IMG/VR virus record: IMGVR_UViG_3300032308_001297
Coordinates: 1 to 64,000 of that record
Direction: 5' to 3' (one strand)
DNA: 64,000 nucleotides
Source: a virus
Shown here in pieces: positions 2,301 through 21,288 of the stretch. Position numbers and translations under genes: made by a program. Below the pieces are notes generated by a model that saw only the letters and a list, made by a program, of their open reading frames with translations, made no database searches and was not told the origin of the DNA. The first letter of the stretch is position 1; each line of letters opens with the position of its first letter.

Positions 2301-3062
2301 ATGAGTACAGTAACTAATGTTGCAGTAGCAACTGAGTCTAAGGTAGTTGATCTTCGCGGAATGTGGATAGGATTGGGAGTCCTAAACGTATTCTATCTTA
2401 TCGTTAGAATCTACGAGCAAGTCTTTGGATGGCGAGCAGGTCTAGATTCTTTCGCTCCAGAATTTCAGACATATTGGATGTCCATTCTCTGGACAGAGAT
2501 TCCACTTGAGCTAGTTTCAGGACTAGGTCTTGCAGGTTATCTTTGGAAGACAAGAGATCGCAATCTTGCTGCCGTAACTCCTCGCGAGGAGATGCGTCGT
2601 TTGGTTACTCTTGTTCAGTGGCTTGTTGTGTATGCTGTCGCCATTTATTGGGGCGCATCCTTCTTCACCGAACAGGACGGTACTTGGCATATGACTGTTA
2701 TTCGTGATACCGACTTTACACCAAGTCATATTATCGAGTTCTATATGTCATATCCAATTTACTCAATTATTGCAGTTGGCGCATTCTTCTATGCTCGTAC
2801 TCGTATCCCTTACTTTGCTCAGGGATATAGTCTCGCATTCTTGATTGTTGCCATCGGACCATTTATGATCATTCCAAACGTTGGACTCAACGAATGGGGT
2901 CATACTTTCTGGTTCATGGAAGAACTATTCGTAGCACCATTGCATTGGGGCTTCGTATTCTTCGGCTGGATGGCACTTGGTGTGTTCGGCGTTGTTCTCC
3001 AAATTCTAGGGCGTGTTCATGCTCTTGTTGGGCGTGAAGGAGTAGCTCTACTAGCAAAATAA
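2301..3062 (+). CDS. pmoC: PmoC, particulate methane monooxygenase subunit C
   Basis: This is a full-length 253-residue membrane protein with about six hydrophobic segments, the normal size for PmoC, starting after a GGAG site. PmoC forms, with PmoA and PmoB, the membrane copper enzyme that oxidises methane to methanol. Copper-site ligands are intact: Asp126, His130 and His143 reproduce the D-x3-H-x12-H pattern of the CuC site, and Asn197, His201 and His215 reproduce the N-x3-H-x13-H pattern of CuD, with the same 54-residue gap between sites as in the Methylococcus protein. AmoC is the alternative, but from memory the sequence is closest to type II methanotroph PmoC. No pmoA or pmoB is in the window. 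A dual promoter and structured leader precede it. Its codons look more GC-ending than those of its neighbours, as expected for a host-derived gene. Confidence 0.95.
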   Translation: MSTVTNVAVATESKVVDLRGMWIGLGVLNVFYLIVRIYEQVFGWRAGLDSFAPEFQTYWMSILWTEIPLELVSGLGLAGYLWKTRDRNLAAVTPREEMRRLVTLVQWLVVYAVAIYWGASFFTEQDGTWHMTVIRDTDFTPSHIIEFYMSYPIYSIIAVGAFFYARTRIPYFAQGYSLAFLIVAIGPFMIIPNVGLNEWGHTFWFMEELFVAPLHWGFVFFGWMALGVFGVVLQILGRVHALVGREGVALLAK

Positions 3063-9610: not shown

Positions 9611-10657
9611 ATGTCGCTAAAAGAACGTTTGATTAAGAATTCTACAATTGATTACACATCTACACTAACTGACTCGAAGATCTATACGAAGAAAGATATG
9701 ATTCAGACTCCAGTGCCAATGATTAACGTGGCATTGTCTGGATCTATTGACGGTGGTGTTACTCCGGGACTGACGATGTTAGCAGGACCATCAAAGCATT
9801 TCAAAACTGGATTTGCTTTGCTGCTAGCATCGTCATTTCTGAAGAAGTATCCAGACGGTGTTATTCTATTCTATGATTCAGAATTTGGTACACCACAGTC
9901 ATACTTTAATAAGTTCAAGATTCCATTAGACTCTGTTGTTCATACACCAATTACTGATGTTGAAGAACTAAAGTTCGACATCATGAAGCAGTTAAAAGAA
10001 ATCAAACGAGAGGATCAAGTTCTAATTATTATTGATTCGATTGGTAATCTTGCATCGAAGAAAGAAGTTGAAGATGCTATGAACGAGAAGTCAGTTGCTG
10101 ATATGTCTCGTGCAAAACAATTAAAGTCTTTATTCAGAATGATCACTCCTCATCTTACGTTGAAAGATATTCCTCTTGTGGCAGTCAATCATACTTACAA
10201 AGAAATTGGTATGTTCCCTAAAGATATCGTTGGTGGTGGCACTGGCGCATATTATGGTGCAGACAATATTTGGATTTTAGGAAGACAGCAGGATAAAGAT
10301 GGCACAGAGATTCAGGGCTACCATTTTGTCATCAATATTGAGAAATCCCGTTACGTTCGTGAAAAATCTAAGGTTCCGATTACCGTTAGCTATGAGGGTG
10401 GTATTAATCGTTGGAGTGGTTTGCTTGACATTGCCATTGAAGGCGGTTACGTGGCTAAACCAAAGGTGGGATGGTATGCCATCGTCAATCGTGAAACTGG
10501 GGAAGTTGATGGAAAGAATTTCCGAGCAGCTGATATCGTGGACTCTAAAGAATTTTGGATGAGCATTTTCGAAACAACCGATTTTGCTGCATATATCAAA
10601 CGCAAATATTCTCTTGATACAGAAGGTAGTTTAGTTTACGACGAAGAAGATGCTTAA
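9611..10657 (+). CDS. uvsX: UvsX recombinase (RecA-like)
   Basis: This 348-residue RecA-family ATPase has a Walker A motif GPSKHFKTG at residues 59-67, the T4 UvsX form rather than the bacterial GPESSGKT, and Walker B VLIIIDSIG near residues 138-146. UvsX coats single-stranded DNA and carries out strand exchange in recombination-dependent replication and repair. It is close to T4 UvsX in length (about 390). It has its own sigma70-like promoter. The next gene starts eight bases before its stop, implying coupling. Confidence 0.95.
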   Translation: MSLKERLIKNSTIDYTSTLTDSKIYTKKDMIQTPVPMINVALSGSIDGGVTPGLTMLAGPSKHFKTGFALLLASSFLKKYPDGVILFYDSEFGTPQSYFNKFKIPLDSVVHTPITDVEELKFDIMKQLKEIKREDQVLIIIDSIGNLASKKEVEDAMNEKSVADMSRAKQLKSLFRMITPHLTLKDIPLVAVNHTYKEIGMFPKDIVGGGTGAYYGADNIWILGRQQDKDGTEIQGYHFVINIEKSRYVREKSKVPITVSYEGGINRWSGLLDIAIEGGYVAKPKVGWYAIVNRETGEVDGKNFRAADIVDSKEFWMSIFETTDFAAYIKRKYSLDTEGSLVYDEEDA

Positions 10658-11237
10658 AGAACATTTTGTTAATCAATTCGACAATTTCATTTGTGGATGG
10701 TATATTGATAAAAATGTTTGTGAAGATCTAATTCAGTATCATAAAAATTGTGCAAATAAAAAACTTGGTACATTTGGAGCCCAAAAGAAAGTTAATAAAA
10801 AAATAAAAGATAGTATAGATTGTGTTCTAGAAGATTCAGAACTCAGTAAAACATACTATGCTGAATTACAAAAATGTGTAGATCTTTATATCGAAAAATA
10901 TAAAGGTTGTAACGTTGGGCCAGCATGGAAAAATACTGAAAATGCAAACTTACAATATTATGAACCAGGAGGAGGCTATCACTCTTGGCATTGCGAAAGA
11001 TATGTTATGTCACCACCAGAAATATACAGACATTTGGTGTTCATGACATATTTAAACGATGTAAATGATGCTGGTGAAACAGAATTTATGTATCAAAAAA
11101 TAAAAATAAAGCCAGAAACAGGATTGACGTTAATCTGGCCAGCAGATTGGACATTTACACACAGAGGGATTGCCTCTCCGACTGAAAAGAAGTATATTTA
11201 CACTGGGTGGTTTAATTTTTACACGGAGGATAAATGA
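10650..11237 (+). CDS. Fe(II)/2-oxoglutarate-dependent oxygenase-like protein
   Basis: This 195-residue protein has a C-terminal double-stranded beta-helix pattern of prolyl-4-hydroxylase type. The metal site appears as His114-x-Glu116 (SWHCER), a variant of His-x-Asp, with His171 in FTHRGIAS. A basic residue about 10 positions later (Lys180 or Lys181) could bind the co-substrate carboxylate. The segment ANLQYYEPGGGYHSWHCE is typical of this family. It sits between uvsX and gene 41 with overlaps on both sides, so it is expressed with the replication genes. The substrate could be a protein or DNA base; nothing in the sequence decides. Confidence 0.75.
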   Translation: MLKEHFVNQFDNFICGWYIDKNVCEDLIQYHKNCANKKLGTFGAQKKVNKKIKDSIDCVLEDSELSKTYYAELQKCVDLYIEKYKGCNVGPAWKNTENANLQYYEPGGGYHSWHCERYVMSPPEIYRHLVFMTYLNDVNDAGETEFMYQKIKIKPETGLTLIWPADWTFTHRGIASPTEKKYIYTGWFNFYTEDK

Positions 11238-12640
11238 ATATTGAGAGAATAATCCTGTCTAATCTTATATTTAACGATAAATATAACAGAAAGGTTATTC
11301 CTTTTCTAAAGAGTGAATATTTCCAGGATTATCCTGAACGTGTTGTCTTTGATCTCATTGACGAATATGTAAAGAAATATAACTCTTTTCCTTCTACAGA
11401 AGCGTTAGCAATAGACCTGTCTAATAAAGAAGGACTAAACGATCAGACATTCAAAAACAGTAAAGATGTAATTACTGCTCTTGAGGCTGATTCTAACACT
11501 CAACTAGATTGGCTCTTGGATCATACAGAAAAATTCTGTCAGGATAAATCGCTTTATCTTGCTATCATGCAGTCAATTAAGATAATGGATGAGAAAAATG
11601 GACAAATCTCCAAAGGAAGTATTCCATCAATACTTACTGACGCTCTCGCTGTCTCTTTTGATACCAGCATTGGTCATGATTTTCTGGATAACAGTGATGA
11701 GAGATACGAATTCTACCATCGTAAAGAGAAAAGAATTCCTTTCGACATTGAATACCTTAACACAATTACAAATGGTGGCTTGCCCGAAAAAACCCTCAAC
11801 ATTGCCTTGGCTGGGACAGGAGTTGGTAAATCCATGTTCATGTGCCACTGCGCAGCAAGTAATCTCACGAGGGGATATAACGTACTGTATATCACGCTAG
11901 AGATGTCAGAGGAACGCATCGCTGAAAGAATCGATGCGAACCTTCTTGATGTTTCTATTGAAGAATTGGAATTGCTTCCTAAACAATCTTATGATACAAA
12001 AATTAATAGACTTAAAGAAAAGTACACAAGTAAACTGATCATCAAGGAATATCCAACAGCTGGTGCTGGTTCTGCTAATTTTCGTCATCTATTAAACGAA
12101 TTAAAGATTAAAAAGAATTTCGTTCCTGATATCATATATATTGATTATCTGAATATTTGTATGTCATCGAGGCTGAAGTATGGATCCAACGTCAATTCTT
12201 ATACCCTTATCAAATCCATCGCAGAAGAGCTCCGTGGGTTGGCCGTTGAGTTCAGCGTCCCTATCGTCAGTGCAACTCAAACAACTAGAAGCGGATATTC
12301 GAACAGCGACGTGGGATTGGAGGATACATCGGAATCCTTTGGACTCCCAGCCACAGCTGATTTTATGTTTGCCCTCATTGGATCAGAGGAACTTGAAAGT
12401 CTCAACCAAATCATGGTTAAGCAACTCAAGAATCGTTATTCCGATCCTAGCTCTAATCGTAGGTTTATTGTTGGGATTGACCGTAGCAAAATGCGACTAT
12501 ATGACGTGGATCAATCTGCTCAAGACGGACTTGTCGACGATCGTCCAGTAATGGATAAAGGCAAGTTCATGGAGGAAGAAAATGAGCGACACAAACCAAA
12601 ACCAAAGTTCGACAGAAGCAAGTTCGAAGGATTCAAGTGA
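11234..12640 (+). CDS. 41: Replicative DNA helicase, T4 gp41-like (DnaB family)
   Basis: This 468-residue protein has a helical N-terminal domain (about 1-165) and a RecA-like DnaB C-terminal domain with Walker A AGTGVGKS at 193-200, ITLEMSEERIAERI (motif H1a-like), and Walker B PDIIYIDYLNIC near 295-305. It unwinds the duplex 5'-3' as a hexamer on the lagging strand and works with primase gp61. The start overlaps the previous stop by four bases (ATGA). The last 59 bases overlap the following small gene. Confidence 0.93.
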   Translation: MNIERIILSNLIFNDKYNRKVIPFLKSEYFQDYPERVVFDLIDEYVKKYNSFPSTEALAIDLSNKEGLNDQTFKNSKDVITALEADSNTQLDWLLDHTEKFCQDKSLYLAIMQSIKIMDEKNGQISKGSIPSILTDALAVSFDTSIGHDFLDNSDERYEFYHRKEKRIPFDIEYLNTITNGGLPEKTLNIALAGTGVGKSMFMCHCAASNLTRGYNVLYITLEMSEERIAERIDANLLDVSIEELELLPKQSYDTKINRLKEKYTSKLIIKEYPTAGAGSANFRHLLNELKIKKNFVPDIIYIDYLNICMSSRLKYGSNVNSYTLIKSIAEELRGLAVEFSVPIVSATQTTRSGYSNSDVGLEDTSESFGLPATADFMFALIGSEELESLNQIMVKQLKNRYSDPSSNRRFIVGIDRSKMRLYDVDQSAQDGLVDDRPVMDKGKFMEEENERHKPKPKFDRSKFEGFK

Positions 12641-12782
12641 AGAATGGATACTTGCTATGGCGGAAGATGTCTGGTTGAAGGTTAAAGGATATCCTATTCC
12701 GGATTGTTACAGTAGAAAAGATCGTTTAGAAATATTCGAAAGATATTATCATCGTGCAGTTGCACAATCACAGGGAGAATGA
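12582..12782 (+). CDS. Small protein with a YPIP-type helical domain, 66 aa
   Basis: The ATG lies inside gene 41 but is preceded by GGAGGAAGAAA, an excellent ribosome site, which decides the start. The region LAMAEDVWLKVKGYPIPD matches LASRLADEFWLEINEYPIPE near the N-terminus of the next protein (12787-13602), so the two share a small helical domain of about 40 residues. The 59-base overlap with gene 41 in another frame is unusual. Function unknown. Confidence 0.6.
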   Translation: MSDTNQNQSSTEASSKDSSEEWILAMAEDVWLKVKGYPIPDCYSRKDRLEIFERYYHRAVAQSQGE

Positions 12783-12786
12783 TTGT

Positions 12787-13602
12787 ATGAATTCGCGTGA
12801 TATATTTGTCAACAATCAATTTATCTTAGACGAACATTTTAACGAACAACGACGTGCTTTATACGCTAAAAGAATTACGCCACAGGAAGTTAATGAAACG
12901 CTTGCTTCAAGATTAGCGGACGAATTCTGGTTGGAAATAAATGAATATCCGATACCAGAATTTGTCTCTAGCGAAGAGAAAAGAAATATATTTCTACACT
13001 TTTTACCATTAGTTTTACAGAAAAGAAAAGAAAAACCACCATTTCAATATTATAAAAAATATGATGTTAAAGATTTAAAAGAAGAAATATTAAATTTAGA
13101 AGAAAATTATTGGGACATGGGATTTAAAAGGTTACAAAGACAAACCGAACAAATTCATAAACATACACAAATTATAGGTAATACTTTATTTTCTCTTGAT
13201 TATAATGGTAATGGTGTTATTAACGTCATAAAAAATGATTTAATCCCTAGTAATATTCAATATATGACAGACGAGATAGTTTCTGATTTAGAACGACAAT
13301 TTGATGGTAAAGTTTTGATATCTGGATACACTAGGTTAAATGTTGGTAATAAAATTAATCCTCATATAGATGATCTTTATTATTTTAAAATTGTTAGAAG
13401 GTTTCAGATAGCCATTTTAACCAATTCAAAAGTGTTTTTTAATATAGACGACCAAACTAAAGTGTTTGACGAAGGAGATTGTTACGAAGTAAATAATCTC
13501 ATAAAGCATTCAATACTTAACGAGGGCGAAACAGACAGAATTAATCTTCTTGTTGATATTCTCCCTAATCAAAAGATAAAATCGTATAATATACATTACT
13601 GA
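12787..13602 (+). CDS. Aspartyl/asparaginyl beta-hydroxylase-like oxygenase with N-terminal YPIP domain
   Basis: The protein has 271 residues from the ATG at 12787 with AGGGAG upstream. The C-terminal third carries a complete oxygenase signature: His193-Ile-Asp195 (NPHIDDLYY), His241 (IKHSILNEG) and Arg251 (TDRINLLVDI), with the spacing of the Asp/Asn beta-hydroxylase family. Residues 38-75 repeat the domain found in the preceding 66-residue protein. In known members the enzyme hydroxylates Asp or Asn side chains; the substrate here is unknown. It is downstream of the helicase gene. Confidence 0.7.
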   Translation: MNSRDIFVNNQFILDEHFNEQRRALYAKRITPQEVNETLASRLADEFWLEINEYPIPEFVSSEEKRNIFLHFLPLVLQKRKEKPPFQYYKKYDVKDLKEEILNLEENYWDMGFKRLQRQTEQIHKHTQIIGNTLFSLDYNGNGVINVIKNDLIPSNIQYMTDEIVSDLERQFDGKVLISGYTRLNVGNKINPHIDDLYYFKIVRRFQIAILTNSKVFFNIDDQTKVFDEGDCYEVNNLIKHSILNEGETDRINLLVDILPNQKIKSYNIHY

Positions 13603-13716: not shown

Positions 13717-13804
13717 TCCTATAGGAGTAGCTGCTGTTAAAGCAGCATTAATAGCAAACGCATTTTACGTAATTCTAAAAACAGTAGCGGAGCACAAATG
13801 GTAA
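13706..13804 (+). CDS. Small hydrophobic peptide, 32 aa
   Basis: The start overlaps the preceding gene by 11 bases and the stop overlaps the ferredoxin start by seven. It encodes a mildly hydrophobic helix (GVAAVKAALIANAFYVIL). It could be a leader for translational coupling rather than a functional protein. Confidence 0.4.
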   Translation: MNFNPIGVAAVKAALIANAFYVILKTVAEHKW

Positions 13805-13998
13805 TATGTTCTTGTAATATGATAACTACTGATAATATTCGGGCGGTTCTGACATATGCCACAGATCCGAACGTAAGGCAGGTTCTCAACATGTTAAATT
13901 GGGAACCTGGTTGTGCAATCTGTGCTAATAATCTAGCTACAGAGATTCGTAAGGTGATGGAGGAGTTTGAAAATGGCGATGAATTACAAGGTTGTTGA
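13798..13998 (+). CDS. bfd: Bacterioferritin-associated ferredoxin-like [2Fe-2S] protein
   Basis: This 66-residue protein carries the BFD-type [2Fe-2S] motif: Cys4-x-Cys6 and Cys39-x2-Cys42, almost the same positions and spacing as in the bacterial Bfd. The connecting helices (DNIRAVLTY and EIRKVMEEF) fit the BFD fold. Bacterial Bfd docks on bacterioferritin and delivers electrons to release stored iron. The start overlaps the upstream peptide gene. In a phage with many iron-dependent oxygenases and a Dps ferritin (20842), it may mobilise host iron stores; other BFD-fold proteins serve as small electron carriers, so this role is not certain. Confidence 0.8.
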   Translation: MVICSCNMITTDNIRAVLTYATDPNVRQVLNMLNWEPGCAICANNLATEIRKVMEEFENGDELQGC

Positions 13999-14185
13999 GA
14001 TTGGTGGTTCTTATTGCGTAGAGGAAAATACTACAGGTCTTATTATCGAGGCATATAATACTCAGGAAGAAGCCAAAAAAAAGATGAAATTTTTGAATTT
14101 AGGTGGCGCTTTTGATGGTTTTTCTCCTTCTTTTATCCTTAGTGAAAAGGCAAGAAAACTAAATATTACCAGCAGAAATATGTAG
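13973..14185 (+). CDS. Hypothetical small protein, 70 aa
   Basis: The ATG at 13973 follows GGAGGAG; it overlaps the ferredoxin gene by 26 bases. The sequence (YKVVEIGGSYCVEENTTGL) looks like a small beta-alpha-beta fold of the type found in many phage early genes. Function unknown. Confidence 0.55.
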   Translation: MAMNYKVVEIGGSYCVEENTTGLIIEAYNTQEEAKKKMKFLNLGGAFDGFSPSFILSEKARKLNITSRNM

Positions 14186-14290
14186 TCCACTGAAGTGGAA
14201 GCGGCACGAGCCTAAAATAAGAAAGGGCCACGGAATAGTCTGGAGAAAACGGTGGGGTTCCGCCAGACCGTATTTATGCTAGAAGCAATT
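14186..14290 (+). other. Structured untranslated region upstream of the terminator
   Basis: Two hairpins are visible: CCACT/AGTGG (about 14188-14200) and a larger one in which TCTGG pairs with CCAGA and CGG with CCG around TGGGGTT (about 14239-14270). No open frame covers it. It may be the 3' part of the upstream mRNA or a small RNA ending at the terminator. Confidence 0.3.
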
Positions 14291-14291
14291 C

Positions 14292-14318
14292 GGGCGGGGA
14301 GAAATCCTCGCCCTTTTT
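14292..14318 (+). terminator. Rho-independent terminator before the late virion module
   Basis: GGGCGGGGA (14292-14300) pairs with TCCTCGCCC (14305-14313), with one G-T wobble, around a GAAA tetraloop, followed by five T. It closes the polymerase-to-ferredoxin transcript. Confidence 0.85.
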
Positions 14319-14323
14319 CGTAT

Positions 14324-14331
14324 TATAAATA
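14324..14331 (+). promoter_or_regulatory. T4-type late promoter
   Basis: A perfect TATAAATA lies six bases after the terminator T tract and 28 bases before the first virion-module gene, an intergenic position that makes it convincing. Confidence 0.75.
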
Positions 14332-14358
14332 TGATAAAATATTATTTAAGGGGATCCT

Positions 14359-15645
14359 ATGTTAAATTTTTCAACTTTTTTGTTAGAAGCCAGAAGCGCA
14401 GAAACCGAATTGAAAAACGTGGAAGACGCCAAAGGTAAATTGTTCGAAATATTATCTGGTTCTTATCTCCTTCATGGAGCTCATTCTAAAACTGGTCTCC
14501 CTAAAAAATTCCTAGAACATTATAGAGATGAAGATGGATTTCGTCCTCAAGAAATTCATGATAAAATTAAAACAGCATTACAAAAGCTATCCCCAGGAAT
14601 GTATGAGCAAGTGGTTCAACACGCCAAATCAGCTGCTGATCATTTAAAAGGACAATTGCAATCAAGAAATATCCATAACATAGATAATTTGGCTTGGACT
14701 TCACAAAAAGGAGATCATGAAAGGTTTACTGGCACTGATGATCCAAATTCCGATGCCGATTTGATGGTCAAAGGAAGAGATCAAAACGGAACTGTTATTG
14801 ATCCAGTTGGAATGAGTATGAAATATGGAAAACAAAAAGACCCAAACCTAAGAGGTAATGGTCTAGATGCTCTAGAAAAAATTGCTGGTTTAAACAAAGG
14901 CGATTTAGAAGGTTTAAGAGAAGCTCATTATGATCATGTCAGAAGTCTCGGACTTCAAACAGGCAAAGCTGGCGACTCTGAATATAAACGTCTTTCCGCT
15001 CAAAACCATCCAACAGCTAAATCAGTTGACGAACACGCTTTACAAACTCAACAAGAATTATCAAAAAGATTTACTAAAGGTCTTGGTAAATTATCTTCGG
15101 ATGAATTAAGAAATTCAATTAAAAATATTATTGCACCAGAAACAAAATATCTCCACATAAGACATCATACACAAGTTGGTAATGACGGATCTCCAAACCA
15201 TGAAACACATAACGTTCAAGATCACGCTAGTAAAGTTCTTGGCGATTACGAAGAATTTAGAGTAAGACCTCATTCTGGAGGTATTTCTGCAGTTATTGAA
15301 GGTAGAAGAAAAGGTTCTAATGATTTTGAAAGAGCTATGGAAATTGGTATGAAAAAAAACAGAACATATTCTGCTCGTGGTTTCAACTCATTTACTAAAG
15401 CTCCAATGTTAAGAGAAGGCAGAAAAACGAAAGTTAAAAAACTTTCTGATATGCCAGCGATTGCAACTGCAAAAGCCACTAAAGTTAAAGCCAAACCTGC
15501 TGCTCCTGCTCCATCACAGAGTCCAAATCTTGGAGAATTTGGTCAGCACAGAGGCGAAGGACCAAACGTTGGGAAACAATTACCAAGACACTATCAAGCA
15601 TATAAAGATTCGAATCATATGGGTTTTAAGGATAGCGGAATATGA
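14359..15645 (+). CDS. Putative capsid-targeted protein with nuclease-like core, 428 aa
   Basis: The N-terminus MLNFSTFLLEA closely resembles the T4 capsid-targeting peptide of internal proteins (MKTYQEFIAEA), including a cleavage-like Leu-Leu-Glu followed by Ala. Residues 125-165 read NSDADLMVKG, then VGMSMKYGKQK, a spacing of Asp and Ser-x-Lys that resembles PD-(D/E)XK nuclease cores. The C-terminal 80 residues are basic and Ala/Pro-rich. It is the first gene after a T4-type late promoter and overlaps the next gene by four bases. Packaging and nuclease activity are both inferences. Confidence 0.5.
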   Translation: MLNFSTFLLEARSAETELKNVEDAKGKLFEILSGSYLLHGAHSKTGLPKKFLEHYRDEDGFRPQEIHDKIKTALQKLSPGMYEQVVQHAKSAADHLKGQLQSRNIHNIDNLAWTSQKGDHERFTGTDDPNSDADLMVKGRDQNGTVIDPVGMSMKYGKQKDPNLRGNGLDALEKIAGLNKGDLEGLREAHYDHVRSLGLQTGKAGDSEYKRLSAQNHPTAKSVDEHALQTQQELSKRFTKGLGKLSSDELRNSIKNIIAPETKYLHIRHHTQVGNDGSPNHETHNVQDHASKVLGDYEEFRVRPHSGGISAVIEGRRKGSNDFERAMEIGMKKNRTYSARGFNSFTKAPMLREGRKTKVKKLSDMPAIATAKATKVKAKPAAPAPSQSPNLGEFGQHRGEGPNVGKQLPRHYQAYKDSNHMGFKDSGI

Positions 15646-16853
15646 GAATAGATTTTAAGACATTCTTAATAGAACAAGAGGAAGCAAAAGGCAAGCCATT
15701 AAAACATCTTCGTCATATCGAAGATTATGTTATTCATGGTGGTCATGAAGGAGTTGCTACTGCTGACGAGCACCTTCGTGGCATGCATGATATGTTGCTT
15801 GGTAAAAAATCAAGTTTACACGCTTCTACAAAATATGATGGTGCACCTTCAATTGTATTCGGTCAACATCCAGAAACTGGACAGTTTTTCGTAGCGTCAA
15901 AATCTGCTTTCAATAAAACTCCAAAAATAAATTATACTGAAGAAGACATTGAAAAAAATCATGGTCATGCTCCTGGATTGGTTGAGAAACTAAAACAATC
16001 CCTAAGACATCTTCCTGGTATAATGCCAAAAGAGGGTGGGATTTATCAGGGCGATTTAATGCACACAGAAGGCGATGCTGTAACTAAAAACGGTAAAACT
16101 TCTGTAACTCCTAATACATTAACATACTCTGCTCCTGCGGATTCAGCAGAAGGTAAAAATATGAACAAAAAACTTGGCGTTGTTGTTCATACAAAATATG
16201 CTGGTAAAGGTGGATTAGGTAATATGTCTGCTCAACCACTTGACGCCAAAACACGTGCAAAGTTTAAACAACATCCTGATGTTAATAATATAGATCCAAC
16301 TTTAGATGTCAATTCTTCAAATTATACTCCAGAAGAACAAAAAGCATTTTTAAATCATATGGATAAAGCCAAAAGAATTTATGCTTCTATGAAACCAGAA
16401 GCAACAGATGCATTAGATGGGCATGGAGAACATTTAGAAGCTCATGTCAATAGTATGATTAGAACTGGAGGAAATCCTTCTCTTCAAGGTTACATTGATC
16501 ATTTGTCTGCTAGACATCAAAAAGATTTAGATAAAGTCAAAACAGACGTTTCTAAACAGAAAAAAATTCAAGCTCACGGTGATGTATTAACACACATCAG
16601 TAATAACAGAGAACATTTTGAAAAAGCGTTGCAGCTTCATAGTCATTTACAAAATGCTAAAAATGTATTGACTAACGTTTTGGCGAAGAACTCTCCATAT
16701 GAGCATAGTGTTGCTGGCGAGCACACTGGCCCAGAAGGAACAGTTGTTGTTGATAAGAAAGGTAATGCTTCGAAGTTCAATAATAGAAGAGAATTTAATC
16801 GCCTAAATTTCTTGAAGGGCGCATTCCAGAAACAGCAGGTAGAAAATGCTTAA
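15642..16853 (+). CDS. Putative capsid-targeted ATP-dependent ligase-like nucleotidyltransferase
   Basis: This 403-residue protein begins MRIDFKTFLIEQE, again a capsid-targeting-like peptide with Leu-Ile-Glu. The ligase superfamily motif I appears as STKYDGAPSIVFG (about residues 66-78), with Lys as the expected adenylated residue. A later YQGDLMH and LGVVVHTKYAG are candidates for motifs III and IV. Similar proteins occur in T4-like cyanophages as an uncharacterised family. It may seal or nick-repair nucleic acid, perhaps after injection. The C-terminal half is helical and His-rich. It overlaps both neighbours (ATGA and 8 bases). Confidence 0.6.
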   Translation: MRIDFKTFLIEQEEAKGKPLKHLRHIEDYVIHGGHEGVATADEHLRGMHDMLLGKKSSLHASTKYDGAPSIVFGQHPETGQFFVASKSAFNKTPKINYTEEDIEKNHGHAPGLVEKLKQSLRHLPGIMPKEGGIYQGDLMHTEGDAVTKNGKTSVTPNTLTYSAPADSAEGKNMNKKLGVVVHTKYAGKGGLGNMSAQPLDAKTRAKFKQHPDVNNIDPTLDVNSSNYTPEEQKAFLNHMDKAKRIYASMKPEATDALDGHGEHLEAHVNSMIRTGGNPSLQGYIDHLSARHQKDLDKVKTDVSKQKKIQAHGDVLTHISNNREHFEKALQLHSHLQNAKNVLTNVLAKNSPYEHSVAGEHTGPEGTVVVDKKGNASKFNNRREFNRLNFLKGAFQKQQVENA

Positions 16854-17739
16854 ATTCAATAATTATTTTTTAACAGAAGCTGATAAAACCACTCATGTGA
16901 CAACATTCATGAGAACTAATCCTATGACTATCGCCCATGAAGGATTGGTCAATCATGTTAGACAATTAGCGACAGACTTGGACGCTAATCATAGTATCGT
17001 TTTATCTCATACACATGATGGAGATAAAAATCCATTAACACCAGAACAAAAATTAAGACATGCCAAGATTGCATTTCCTGGAGCTAATGTTTCAACTTCT
17101 TCTGTAGATTCTCCAAGTTTAATGCATCACGCTTCAAAATTATATGCAAATGGTGTTAGAAACCTTCATTTGGTTGTTGGAGATGATAGAGTTGATCAAT
17201 TCCGAAACTTGTTGCAGAAATATAATGGTCAAGAAGGAGCGCATGGTCATTTCAATTTTGATAATATAACAGTTCATTCTGCTGGTAGAAGAGATCCTGA
17301 TGCAGAAGGTATGGAAGGCGTTTCTGGTACAAGACAAAGAGAATTTGCAAGAAATGGCGACTTCGAAGGATTCCGTGCAGGTGCACCAAGTCATATGAGT
17401 GACGCTCAAGCAATGAGTCTTTTCAACGATATTCGTAATGCCAAACCACCAGAAAAACCAGTCAAGGCAAAACCAGTAGCAAAAAAGAAACCTATTAAAG
17501 AAAGTCTCACCACAGCTTCTGCAGGAGAAATGGTTAGAGGTTTCGGAGACGTTTCTGGTAATCCAGCAGTAAATGATGCCGAAAAAGAAAAGTATGCTAC
17601 AAACAATACTTCGTCCGGTCTAGCTGACGATGAAAACAATGGCTATATATCTAAGTACCTAGAAAAAAATCAAAATAAAATTGCAAAGCAAATTGGATTC
17701 AAAGAGTTCAGTTTCAAAGACCTTAAAGGCAAAAAATAA
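16846..17739 (+). CDS. Putative capsid-targeted adenylyl/cytidylyltransferase-like protein
   Basis: This 297-residue protein starts MLKFNNYFLTEADK, with Leu-Thr-Glu before Ala as a possible prohead protease site. A nucleotidyltransferase alpha/beta fold follows: RTNPMTIAHEGLVNHV (about residues 24-39) corresponds to the TxxH/GH motif, and SGTRQREFARNGDFEGF (about 162-178) to the C-terminal SSTxxR-type motif of NMN and phosphopantetheine adenylyltransferases. The last 90 residues are low-complexity and basic. It forms one operon with the two preceding proteins. The transferred nucleotide and acceptor are unknown. Confidence 0.65.
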   Translation: MLKFNNYFLTEADKTTHVTTFMRTNPMTIAHEGLVNHVRQLATDLDANHSIVLSHTHDGDKNPLTPEQKLRHAKIAFPGANVSTSSVDSPSLMHHASKLYANGVRNLHLVVGDDRVDQFRNLLQKYNGQEGAHGHFNFDNITVHSAGRRDPDAEGMEGVSGTRQREFARNGDFEGFRAGAPSHMSDAQAMSLFNDIRNAKPPEKPVKAKPVAKKKPIKESLTTASAGEMVRGFGDVSGNPAVNDAEKEKYATNNTSSGLADDENNGYISKYLEKNQNKIAKQIGFKEFSFKDLKGKK

Positions 17740-19685
17740 TGGCAACGTGGAATTCTGGTAATAGTAGTTATCAATCTGGTAATAAAACTTTATTTGAAGT
17801 CCAGATGCTTGCTACTCCTGATGGAGTTGAAGTAAGTAATACGAATCCTTTACCAGTAACTCTTGGTAATGCAACAATTGAAATTACAGGTAGTAACGTA
17901 AATGTTACTATACCAAATACGGTTGTAGTAAACTCCACTCCAGAAAACCCAGTTCACGTTCATCTTACAGAAGTTGGAAACAGCGGACTTCTTACCGTTT
18001 CTTATATGCCAATTGGCGGTAATGTTGTTGTTACTAGTGGTAATTTAGTATTAGGATCAAATGTAACAGCTTTTATTAATAATTTTCCACTAACTCAGAA
18101 TGTATCGTTTTCTAATCAGTCAGTTAATCTAGTTGGTAATGTTTCTGGTATTACTTCTAATGTTGTAGTGTCTGTTAATAATTTTCCATCTGTTTATACT
18201 GTTTCTAATGGTTATCCAACCACTCAGAATGTATCGTTTTCTAATCAGTCAGTAACAATAACAGGTAATGTTTCTGGTATTACTTCTAATGTTACTGTAT
18301 CAGTTAATAATTGGCCAACATATCAAAACACATATATCCATCATAGCAACGGTTCAAACATAACCAATACTGATCCTCTTCCAGTTACTGCAGCTATTAC
18401 TGGCACTGTAACAGCAACACCTGTTGCTGGAGCAGTTGATGCTTTTGGAAGAATGAGAGTTTCCGAAGGATTTACTCTTGGAGATTATAAACATACTTAT
18501 GGTATTGATCCCAATTTTATAGATTCAACTGCTAATGGAGCTACAGTAACACATCAAACAAATCAAGCTGCAGCTAGATTGACAACAACAAGCAATGCTA
18601 CTTCATACGCTATACATCAAACAAAACAGTATCATAATTATATGCCTGGTAAAAGCCAGTTAATAAAAAGCACTATCAATTTTTTTGCAGCTACTGCAAA
18701 TGTAACGAAAAGAACTGGATATTTTGATAATAACAATGGTATTTTCTTCGAACAAACCGGAGATGGTACATTAGCGTTTGTGATTAGAACTGACACTTCT
18801 GGTTCTCCTTCTGATTCTCGTAGAGTAACTCAAGCGCAATGGAATCAAGACACCTGTAACACCAGTATTACTGGAACATCCACAGATGGTTCTAATTATG
18901 GCAAAGCAGGAACTTGGAATTTAGATATTACAAAAACACAAATTTTCTGGATAGATTTCCAATGGCTTGGTGTTGGTAGAGTTCGTTGTGGATTTGTTCA
19001 TGATGGTAATATGATTGTTGCTCATGAATTTTACAATTCAAATCATTTACCAACTGTTTATATGAGTAATCCTAATCTACCAGTTCGTTGTGAGATTAGA
19101 AATACTGGTGCTACTACTGGTGGTTATTTTGATCAAATCTGTTCTACTGTTATTTCAGAAGGTGGATATGTTGAAAGCGGTATTGACTGGGCTATTACAT
19201 CAGGACAAACTGCACAGTCAGTTACAACAGCAAGTAACAATTATCCTATTATAGCAATTAGATTGAAAAATACATTTAGAACATATCCAAACAGAGTTAC
19301 AGTCCGTATGGGTAATATTAATATGTACGCTGAAAATTATCCGGTATACTGGAAATTGATAAAATTAGCTGATAGTAGTTATATAACTTTGGCAAATACA
19401 ACTTGGGTTAGTGCTGATGCTGATTCCGCAGTTGAATATAATTTGTCAGGAACTGCTATTTCAGGTGGCGATGAGATGGATAATGGTCTTGTAGGATCAT
19501 CAAGTCCTGGTGGTTCTGCTAAAGGAACTGGTGTTGCTCCTGTAAATCAACCAAGTAGTGCTAAGAAAAACTTTATCGCTCAAAACATTGATTCGTCTAA
19601 TTCTGAAATATATGTGGTCGCTGCTCAAGCAATTGGCGGAACGGCTGGTGTTTGGACGGCTATTCAATGGAGAGAAATTTACTAA
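17739..19685 (+). CDS. Fibre-like virion protein with beta repeats, 648 aa
   Basis: The N-terminal 240 residues consist of Asn/Val/Thr/Ser-rich beta-strand repeats including two copies of a 43-residue unit (TQNVSFSNQSV, GNVSGITSNV, VNNFP or VNNWP). A longer globular region follows (about 250-648) rich in Thr, Asn and Tyr with no recognised catalytic motif. Low charge, beta-rich sequence and position in the late module suggest a fibre, spike or head-decorating protein. The start overlaps the stop of the upstream gene by one base (TAATG). Confidence 0.65.
   Translation: MATWNSGNSSYQSGNKTLFEVQMLATPDGVEVSNTNPLPVTLGNATIEITGSNVNVTIPNTVVVNSTPENPVHVHLTEVGNSGLLTVSYMPIGGNVVVTSGNLVLGSNVTAFINNFPLTQNVSFSNQSVNLVGNVSGITSNVVVSVNNFPSVYTVSNGYPTTQNVSFSNQSVTITGNVSGITSNVTVSVNNWPTYQNTYIHHSNGSNITNTDPLPVTAAITGTVTATPVAGAVDAFGRMRVSEGFTLGDYKHTYGIDPNFIDSTANGATVTHQTNQAAARLTTTSNATSYAIHQTKQYHNYMPGKSQLIKSTINFFAATANVTKRTGYFDNNNGIFFEQTGDGTLAFVIRTDTSGSPSDSRRVTQAQWNQDTCNTSITGTSTDGSNYGKAGTWNLDITKTQIFWIDFQWLGVGRVRCGFVHDGNMIVAHEFYNSNHLPTVYMSNPNLPVRCEIRNTGATTGGYFDQICSTVISEGGYVESGIDWAITSGQTAQSVTTASNNYPIIAIRLKNTFRTYPNRVTVRMGNINMYAENYPVYWKLIKLADSSYITLANTTWVSADADSAVEYNLSGTAISGGDEMDNGLVGSSSPGGSAKGTGVAPVNQPSSAKKNFIAQNIDSSNSEIYVVAAQAIGGTAGVWTAIQWREIY
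18093..18316 (+). repeat. Two tandem 129-bp repeats inside the fibre-like gene
   Basis: A 32-base segment beginning ACTCAGAATGTATCG occurs at 18093 and again at 18222, and the sequence GGTAATGTTTCTGGTATTAC follows each at the same distance. The period of 129 bases is 43 codons, so the unit can expand or contract in frame. Confidence 0.85.
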
Positions 19686-19688
19686 AAA

Positions 19689-19695
19689 CTAAATA
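19689..19695 (+). promoter_or_regulatory. Possible late promoter box CTAAATA
   Basis: CTAAATA follows the fibre gene stop by five bases and lies 65 bases before the next start. CTAAATA-type boxes are reported as late elements in T4-like cyanophages. Confidence 0.35.
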
Positions 19696-19759
19696 GAAAG
19701 TCAGTGCGATAAGGCTATGGGCAGACTCGCATATATAGGAAAACCCAAGGGAAACTCCG

Positions 19760-20842
19760 ATGAAAAAATATTCTACTTTTGGAACTCAGCTAGGCGAGTC
19801 TGTCCAACTCACTGACAAAGCCAAACTTTCTCTATACAAAAAATCCCAAAATTCAGGCATCTCGACCGATATTCTTGAAGAAGTGTATCGTAGAGGTTAT
19901 CGTTGCTGGACCGAAGCGTTCGGTGGGACTCCAGAACAATTCGCATTCGACAGAGTTAATTCATTTATTGCTGATGGATTTGCTGCACAACTCGATGAAG
20001 ACCTTAAAAAGGCGTGTTGGAAGGGCTACGAAGCCATTGGTATGAAGAAAAAGAATGGCAAGACCGTTCCTAATTGCGTTCCAGTCAAAGAACAGTTGAA
20101 CGCTCCACTTCCACCAATCGAAAAGATTGCTAAGAAATTCGATAAGCCAGTTGATACTATCAAAGATGTAATCAAAACTGGTTCTAAAGTTGAAAAAGAA
20201 CACACCAAAAATCAAAAAACAGCCGAGAAAATTGCTAAGGCGCATGTTAATGAACGCCCAGATTATTACAAGAAACTCGATAAGGCTGGATTAGAAGAGC
20301 AGGAAGAAGCTCGTTCAAAAAATTCTGATAAACCATCATCAAGATTTATTGGTTCTGATGAGTTAGTAACAATTTATAAGTCACAGACTCCAGGTCAAAT
20401 CATTAAAAAAGTTGTTAAAGAGAATTTAGAAGAAGCAACTTATAAGGGTAAAACTGTCCCTCTTAACAAACCAATGAAGGGCGATGTTAAGAAGTCAAAA
20501 GTATTCGTTGATCCTGATGGCGACGGTAAAGCCAAGAAAGTAAACTTCGGCGACAAAAGCCTCTCAATTAAAAAGCATATTCCTGCTCGTAAAAAATCAT
20601 ATTGTGCTAGATCAGGCGGTCAGGGCAATTTAACAGATAAATCAAGCGCCAATTATTGGTCAAGACGTGCATGGAACTGCGAAGAGACAGAAGTAAATGA
20701 ACTTTCTGTTCCAGCAGGAACAACAGGGAAAAGAAAAGAAGTTTCTACTCCGATGGTAGCAATTCGTATGGCTTCTGGTAAAATTGAAAAACATCCACCT
20801 GGAAAGAGCGGTAGCTCTGGCGGTGGCGGAGATGAAGAATAA
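19760..20842 (+). CDS. DUF5872-like virion-module protein, 360 aa
   Basis: The protein begins MKKYSTFGTQLGES, with a Leu-Gly-Glu that fits the prohead protease consensus. It contains phage-typical motifs: SLYKKSQNSGISTDILEEVY, YRRGYRCWTE, CWKGYEAIGMKKKNGKTVPNC (residues about 82-100) and YCARSGGQ with YWSRRAWNC near residues 275-310, each Cys/Trp-rich with Lys/Arg. Similar modules are found in DUF5872-type phage proteins. The C-terminal segment is Gly/Ser-rich. Function unknown; position and sequence suggest a virion or core component. One-base overlap (TAATG) with the Dps gene. Confidence 0.55.
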   Translation: MKKYSTFGTQLGESVQLTDKAKLSLYKKSQNSGISTDILEEVYRRGYRCWTEAFGGTPEQFAFDRVNSFIADGFAAQLDEDLKKACWKGYEAIGMKKKNGKTVPNCVPVKEQLNAPLPPIEKIAKKFDKPVDTIKDVIKTGSKVEKEHTKNQKTAEKIAKAHVNERPDYYKKLDKAGLEEQEEARSKNSDKPSSRFIGSDELVTIYKSQTPGQIIKKVVKENLEEATYKGKTVPLNKPMKGDVKKSKVFVDPDGDGKAKKVNFGDKSLSIKKHIPARKKSYCARSGGQGNLTDKSSANYWSRRAWNCEETEVNELSVPAGTTGKRKEVSTPMVAIRMASGKIEKHPPGKSGSSGGGGDEE

Positions 20843-21288
20843 TGTTCCCTATACTTGAACCATCTGACGCTTTAAAAGTTGCATTAGCTGACAGCTACGT
20901 TTTTGCAGTCAAAACACAACATTTTCATTGGAATGTAACAGGTCCGCATTTTTCCGAATATCATAAATTCTTCGGCTCTGTATACGAAGAAGTAAATGAT
21001 GGGATTGATGTTATTGCAGAAGCAATCAGAACTCTTGGTATGTTTTCTCCAGGTTCTATGAAAAGATTTTTAGATTTAACTACTATTGAAGAAGCAACTA
21101 ATATTCCTGATGGTCTAGTTATGCTTAGTAAACTAGCTGCTGATAACGAAAGAGTTATTGCTTCTCTCAGACTTGCTTATGAAATTTGCGAAAAGCATAA
21201 GCATTTTGGGATTTCAAACGTAATACAAGATCGCATCACTGCTCATGAGAAACATGGCTGGATGCTAAGATCGTTCGTAAAGGCATAA
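20842..21288 (+). CDS. dps: Dps-like mini-ferritin
   Basis: This 148-residue four-helix protein has the Dps ferroxidase signature: His29 (FHWNVTGPHF), His41, Asp56 and Glu60 (DVIAEAIR) at the spacing seen in Listeria and E. coli Dps. One ligand position, four residues after His41, is Gly45 in place of the usual acidic residue, so the site may be altered. Dps assembles as a 12-mer, stores iron, quenches peroxide and can coat DNA. It lies among late virion genes without a targeting peptide. It may protect DNA during infection or be packaged; the window also encodes a Bfd-type ferredoxin. Confidence 0.88.
   Translation: MFPILEPSDALKVALADSYVFAVKTQHFHWNVTGPHFSEYHKFFGSVYEEVNDGIDVIAEAIRTLGMFSPGSMKRFLDLTTIEEATNIPDGLVMLSKLAADNERVIASLRLAYEICEKHKHFGISNVIQDRITAHEKHGWMLRSFVKA

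Follow-up and report, generated by a model that had tools for sequence, protein, structure and literature searches.

The 64,000-nucleotide stretch of viral DNA analysed here (the window; positions 1 to 64,000 of IMG/VR record IMGVR_UViG_3300032308_001297) encodes a Bfd-type ferredoxin, a member of a family of small iron-sulfur proteins whose normal role is to make bacteria let go of stored iron. We incline, with some caution, to the view that this protein, an alpha-type Bfd found in T4-like phages that infect Methylocystaceae-like methanotrophs, is produced alongside the replication proteins and releases Fe(II) from the host bacterioferritin (Bfr), and that the Dps mini-ferritin encoded nearby is a separate, late function. 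This view is built on the homology, fold, genomic position and distribution of the protein, on the purifying selection that acts on it, on the type of host and on host bfr genes whose products have the matching residues, and it is from these that we infer cluster binding, docking, electron transfer, timing and a benefit to the phage. With a Bfd of its own, the virus could perhaps open the host iron store during infection. Phage manipulation of host iron has been suspected, mostly by indirect argument, and a conserved phage gene for a bacterioferritin-unlocking protein, linked to pmoC and to a single host group, allows the control of iron in infected methane-consuming bacteria to be tested directly. 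The features discussed are listed in Table 1.

Table 1. Features of the window that bear on the phage Bfd and Dps proteins.
Feature	Position	Strand	Remarks
PmoC, methane monooxygenase subunit C	2301..3062	+	Host marker; TATAAATA at 2213
UvsX recombinase	9611..10657	+	Replication module 5' of bfd
Replicative helicase, presumed gp41-type	11234..12640	+	Conserved upstream neighbour of bfd in relatives
Bfd-type [2Fe-2S] ferredoxin, 66 aa	13798..13998	+	Fer2_BFD match slightly below cut-off, four Cys, predicted fold
72-aa ORF overlapping the end of bfd	13967..14185	+	Conserved next gene in relatives
Predicted intrinsic terminator hairpin	14292..14313	+	9-bp stem then T-run; ends replication-side transcription unit
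T4-type late promoter motif TATAAATA	14324..14331	+	27 nt 5' of ORF 14359, head of dps-containing unit
Virion structural (head) protein, PHROG 1645	17739..19685	+	Within predicted late unit holding dps
Dps mini-ferritin, 148 aa	20842..21288	+	Ligands H29, H41, D56 and E60 kept; Gly45 at usual Asp position

The earlier note on this DNA had named the ferredoxin as Bfd-like from the sequence, and the cysteines and the fold bear this out. The ORF matches Pfam Fer2_BFD with an E-value of 1.8e-5 and 25.4 bits, 0.6 bits short of the curated cut-off of 26, and phage relatives in contigs G054 and G061 score above that cut-off. A CxC...CxxC motif is formed by C4, C6, C39 and C42, which are invariant across the aligned relatives and are the predicted ligands of a [2Fe-2S] cluster. 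When an AF2 model built from ten relatives (mean pLDDT 82) was compared with the PDB using Foldseek, the confident matches were to Pseudomonas aeruginosa Bfd only (6e6s, 6e6r and 4e6k, prob 1.00), and the Bfd chain of the BfrB-Bfd complex (4e6k_G) aligns to the model with a VIA Z of 8.2 and an rmsd of 1.4 over 55 residues. Structure search alone recovered Bfd, as phmmer found no Bfd match among PDB sequences; no PHROGs family matches the window protein either. Pairwise NG86 dN/dS values among the phage Bfds are about 0.03–0.25, indicating purifying selection.

The phage proteins are about 30–40% identical to bacterial alpha Bfds, from which they differ in the absence of the Cys-rich C-terminal tail, in the replacement of a Cys by W35, and in being phage-borne without bfr, no bfr gene having been found in the phage. 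The second half of the window Bfd has diverged, with the GCxxxCGRC motif of alpha Bfds lost in the window group (which has NWEPGCAIC there), and the phage domains are more acidic, with net charges of -5.5 to +0.5 versus +1.6 to +2.6 for methanotroph Bfds. Loss of CGRC together with the acidic shift could weaken or alter docking.

The link to bacterioferritin is drawn from the bacterial relatives and from the residues at the docking surface. Among genome contigs, the closest bacterial Bfds are alphaproteobacterial, chiefly Rhizobiales/Hyphomicrobiales, and bfr lies within 3 kb of bfd in 67 of the 80 nearest relatives, Methylosinus and Methylocystis among them. Two types of contact have been described: in the alpha-type pair of Brucella, Bfd L2/S5 face Bfr F68/Q81, and in the Pseudomonas pair, Bfd Y2/L5 lie against Bfr L68/E81 (PMC13136788). 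The phage Bfds keep the alpha-type residues, with I or V at position 2 and S at position 5 (V2 and S5 in the window), and Y2/L5 are missing from phage and host-type Bfds alike. The Brucella abortus protein Ba-Bfd (PMC13136788) likewise has the four cysteines, the Bfd fold, the MxxCSCN segment, and an aliphatic residue 2 and Ser5 matched to Bfr F68/Q81; the conservation of MxxCSCN in our set is partly ascertainment, the sequences having been gathered in part with N-terminal patterns. On the other side of the interface, Methylosinus and Methylocystis Bfr have the heme ligand M52 plus F68, P69, N70, Q72, Q81 and E85, in a numbering that follows E. coli Bfr. The earlier note had made the proposal depend on conserved Bfr-contact residues and on a host with bacterioferritin; because the phage keeps the alpha-type positions 2 and 5 and the host family has bfr (6/6 Methylocystaceae genomes examined), with the alpha-type F68/Q81 site, the Bfd half of that proposal survives.

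An alphaproteobacterial methanotroph is the most likely host, as judged from the window PmoC, which is 86% identical to that of a Methylocystaceae MAG over nearly the full length, 80–85% identical to Methylosinus and 88% identical to a fragment from a Methylocystis MAG, from a permuted tmRNA matching alpha_tmRNA at 101.5 bits, and from the assignment of several pmoC-phages to Methylocystis by Chen et al. 2020 (PMC7674155). The permuted alphaproteobacterial-type tmRNA (L086:10100-10418, genome ~134100-134418, - strand) carries the tag ANDNDASFGTFALAA and adjoins a tRNA-Arg gene. A copy of TATAAATA at 2213-2220 of the window is about 80 nt 5' of the pmoC ORF and fits late expression of phage pmoC, which is reportedly expressed late.

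In the release reading, phage Bfd would be produced together with the replication proteins and its N-terminal MxxCSCN segment would dock on the heme-bearing dimer face of host Bfr, at the F68/Q81 pocket; electrons would pass from a host reductase through the phage [2Fe-2S] cluster to host Bfr, and stored Fe(II) would be freed during infection, with Dps a separate and more widespread phage gene. Fer2_BFD domains are found in other redox proteins too, and we give a distinctly smaller, though real, chance to a Bfd that, as a small [2Fe-2S] protein, carries electrons for some other redox enzyme of phage or host and not for bacterioferritin. The lost CGRC motif and altered charge would suit such a carrier, as would the several oxidoreductases of the genome, e.g. 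Fe/2OG oxygenases, but the latter normally have no need for a ferredoxin, residues 2 and 5 fit the alpha Bfd type, the confident fold matches are confined to Bfd, and the neighbours of bfd vary between phage backbones. Improbable in our estimation is a decoy that fills the Bfd site on host Bfr, transfers electrons poorly and blocks the host Bfd so that iron stays locked; such a protein might well keep its N-terminal contacts and change in charge and in the second cluster-binding half, as seen here, but every aligned phage sequence has the four cluster cysteines, for which a decoy would have no need.

The release reading places bfd among the early functions, and the genome organization agrees with this. 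The window backbone has the order pmoC-hsp20-gp43-uvsX-gp41-bfd (gp41 being named as in T4-like phages), and in a second backbone bfd is located directly before gp43; bfd thus belongs to the replication cluster in both, with different neighbours. The hairpin downstream of bfd has a folding z of -3.7. Among 19 bfd loci tested, which come partly from overlapping contigs, TATAAATA is found within 1.5 kb downstream of bfd in 16 and a hairpin was detected in 10. The motif is not enriched window-wide (10 found versus 8 expected), so what speaks for a late promoter is its conserved position behind the terminator. Because the terminator and the motif intervene, bfd and dps are predicted to be in different transcription units, and the succession of uvsX/gp41, bfd, terminator, TATAAATA, head protein and dps accords with the assignment in the earlier note of bfd to the replication transcript and of dps to the virion module.

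The further suggestion that the two genes form an iron management pair finds little support: they are 7 kb apart and in separate predicted units, and each occurs without the other. Many T4-like phages of freshwater have Dps and lack Bfd, as do 17 of the 32 phage contigs sampled; Bfd is present without Dps in the long contigs G058 (172 kb), G061 (174 kb) and G064 (96 kb), which may be incomplete. The two are found together in 11/11 window-type contigs with enough DNA downstream of bfd. Co-residence in the window lineage is therefore supported and a dedicated Bfd-Dps pair weakly supported. A coordinated two-gene iron system, in which iron freed from the host store by Bfd is stored again by phage Dps or carried by it into virions, would account for this co-residence and for the early/late layout, but the contigs holding one gene without the other make it doubtful, and we think it improbable.

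The identification of the second gene as Dps is secure (Ferritin PF00210, 4e-23; P. aeruginosa Dps 8ff9 by sequence, 1.2e-25), and the glycine remarked on at an expected metal-ligand position is real, being Gly45, at the site of an Asp in E. coli-type Dps. Of the 80 phage Dps holding the region (the window included), 56 have G at this position and none has D, and Methylosinus Dps retain D there; the H, H, D and E ligands are invariant in the same 80. The closest solved Dps, P. aeruginosa PA0962, has peroxide-dependent ferroxidase and DNA cleavage activities, and its iron ligands H37, H49, D64 and E68 (PMC10002758) map to the four ligands of the window Dps with an offset of 8. It differs in having E53 at the position of Gly45, and since E53 is not among its iron ligands, Gly45 is compatible with a working centre. 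A broken ferroxidase centre is rejected as the meaning of Gly45, which is the family norm in phage Dps and affects no P. aeruginosa ligand. A basic DNA-binding tail occurs in some Dps only and is not a defining feature; no Lys-rich tail was found in the window Dps (pI 6.0, net charge -3.8), and its sequence does not suggest tail-mediated DNA binding. The phage Dps probably binds Fe(II), acts as a ferroxidase and gives protection from peroxide, and is probably expressed late.

Relatives of the window Bfd are encoded at 62 IMG/VR loci, and broadening the alphaproteobacterial profile and anchoring a search on pmoC brought out additional Bfd sequence groups. Among long viral contigs, Bfd is present in 15 of the 20 with alpha-type pmoC (at least 89% identity to the window PmoC) and in 0/9 with gamma-type pmoC (59–64%), a general Pfam model search included; the Fisher p is 2e-4, computed with kinship ignored on contigs that are related and not independent. 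Of these 15 copies, that of G057 has an in-frame TGA inside the alignment and that of G070 is cut by the contig end. Isolated phages gave no match to the window Bfd (tblastn) or to group B Bfd; a P. aeruginosa Bfd query recovered Klebsiella phage FBKp34, Stenotrophomonas phages and apparent host contamination.

Because gene order differs, it is clear that Bfd has spread across at least two phage backbones. A 54-row tree places group B beside Methylocystaceae Bfds and the window group apart, and would by itself suggest two separate acquisitions; the tree including group C joins all phage rows on one side of one branch (100/100). On an alignment of 62 columns, phage Bfd may have had one origin followed by spread between backbones. 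We put at about an even chance the broader proposal that a Bfd of their own, sited in the replication module, is general among phages infecting alphaproteobacterial methanotrophs. On that proposal, infection of these methane oxidizers would commonly involve a controlled opening (or a blocking) of the host iron store.

Annotated phage Bfd and virus-encoded bacterioferritin are already known. Klebsiella phage vB_KpM_FBKp34 (MW394390) has a gene annotated as bacterioferritin-associated ferredoxin (QQV91961), which differs in its gamma-type sequence, in belonging to another phage subfamily and in its location near class III RNR and ter genes; as an isolated phage with an annotated bfd, FBKp34 (L263) lends itself to laboratory study of what phage Bfd does. 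A lake-sediment virus bacterioferritin (PMC10904782) is likewise a virus gene acting on host iron storage, with purifying selection reported, but is a storage protein and not a release factor, and the host is archaeal. The freshwater pmoC-phages of Chen et al. 2020 (PMC7674155) resemble the window phage in being T4-like, in coding for pmoC and Hsp20, and in the alphaproteobacterial methanotroph hosts of some; ferredoxin, ferritin, Dps and iron are all unmentioned in the main text of that paper. The texts searched contained no report of a Bfd carried by pmoC-phages of alphaproteobacterial methanotrophs.

The many iron enzymes claimed for the window are only partly present: there are several Fe(II)/2OG-oxygenase families, but the ribonucleotide reductase (RNR) depends on B12, and thymidylate synthase is represented by ThyX. 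Iron for RNR, a class II enzyme, is rejected as the reason for Bfd, and a phage need for iron is not explained by an RNR that is not iron-dependent. The genes of positions 1-63500 include families of amino acid:DNA transferase (ADDT), P-loop nucleotide kinase 3, AdoMet decarboxylase and tryptophan halogenase, a combination that suggests DNA hypermodification or other tailoring chemistry. A halogenase-like gene is also present in the L132 contig, which carries a group B Bfd and codes for a protein with a 4Fe-4S ferredoxin-like motif (L132:580-1584) that by eye resembles epoxyqueuosine reductase. Finally, a small protein with VWLKVKGYPIPDCYS..DRLxIFERYYHRAV is encoded near or directly 5' of bfd in several phages of both backbones (window 12582-12782, the N-terminal part of 12754-13602, and L144:2800-2973), and in the window a stretch related to it is fused to an Asp/Arg-hydroxylase-like domain.
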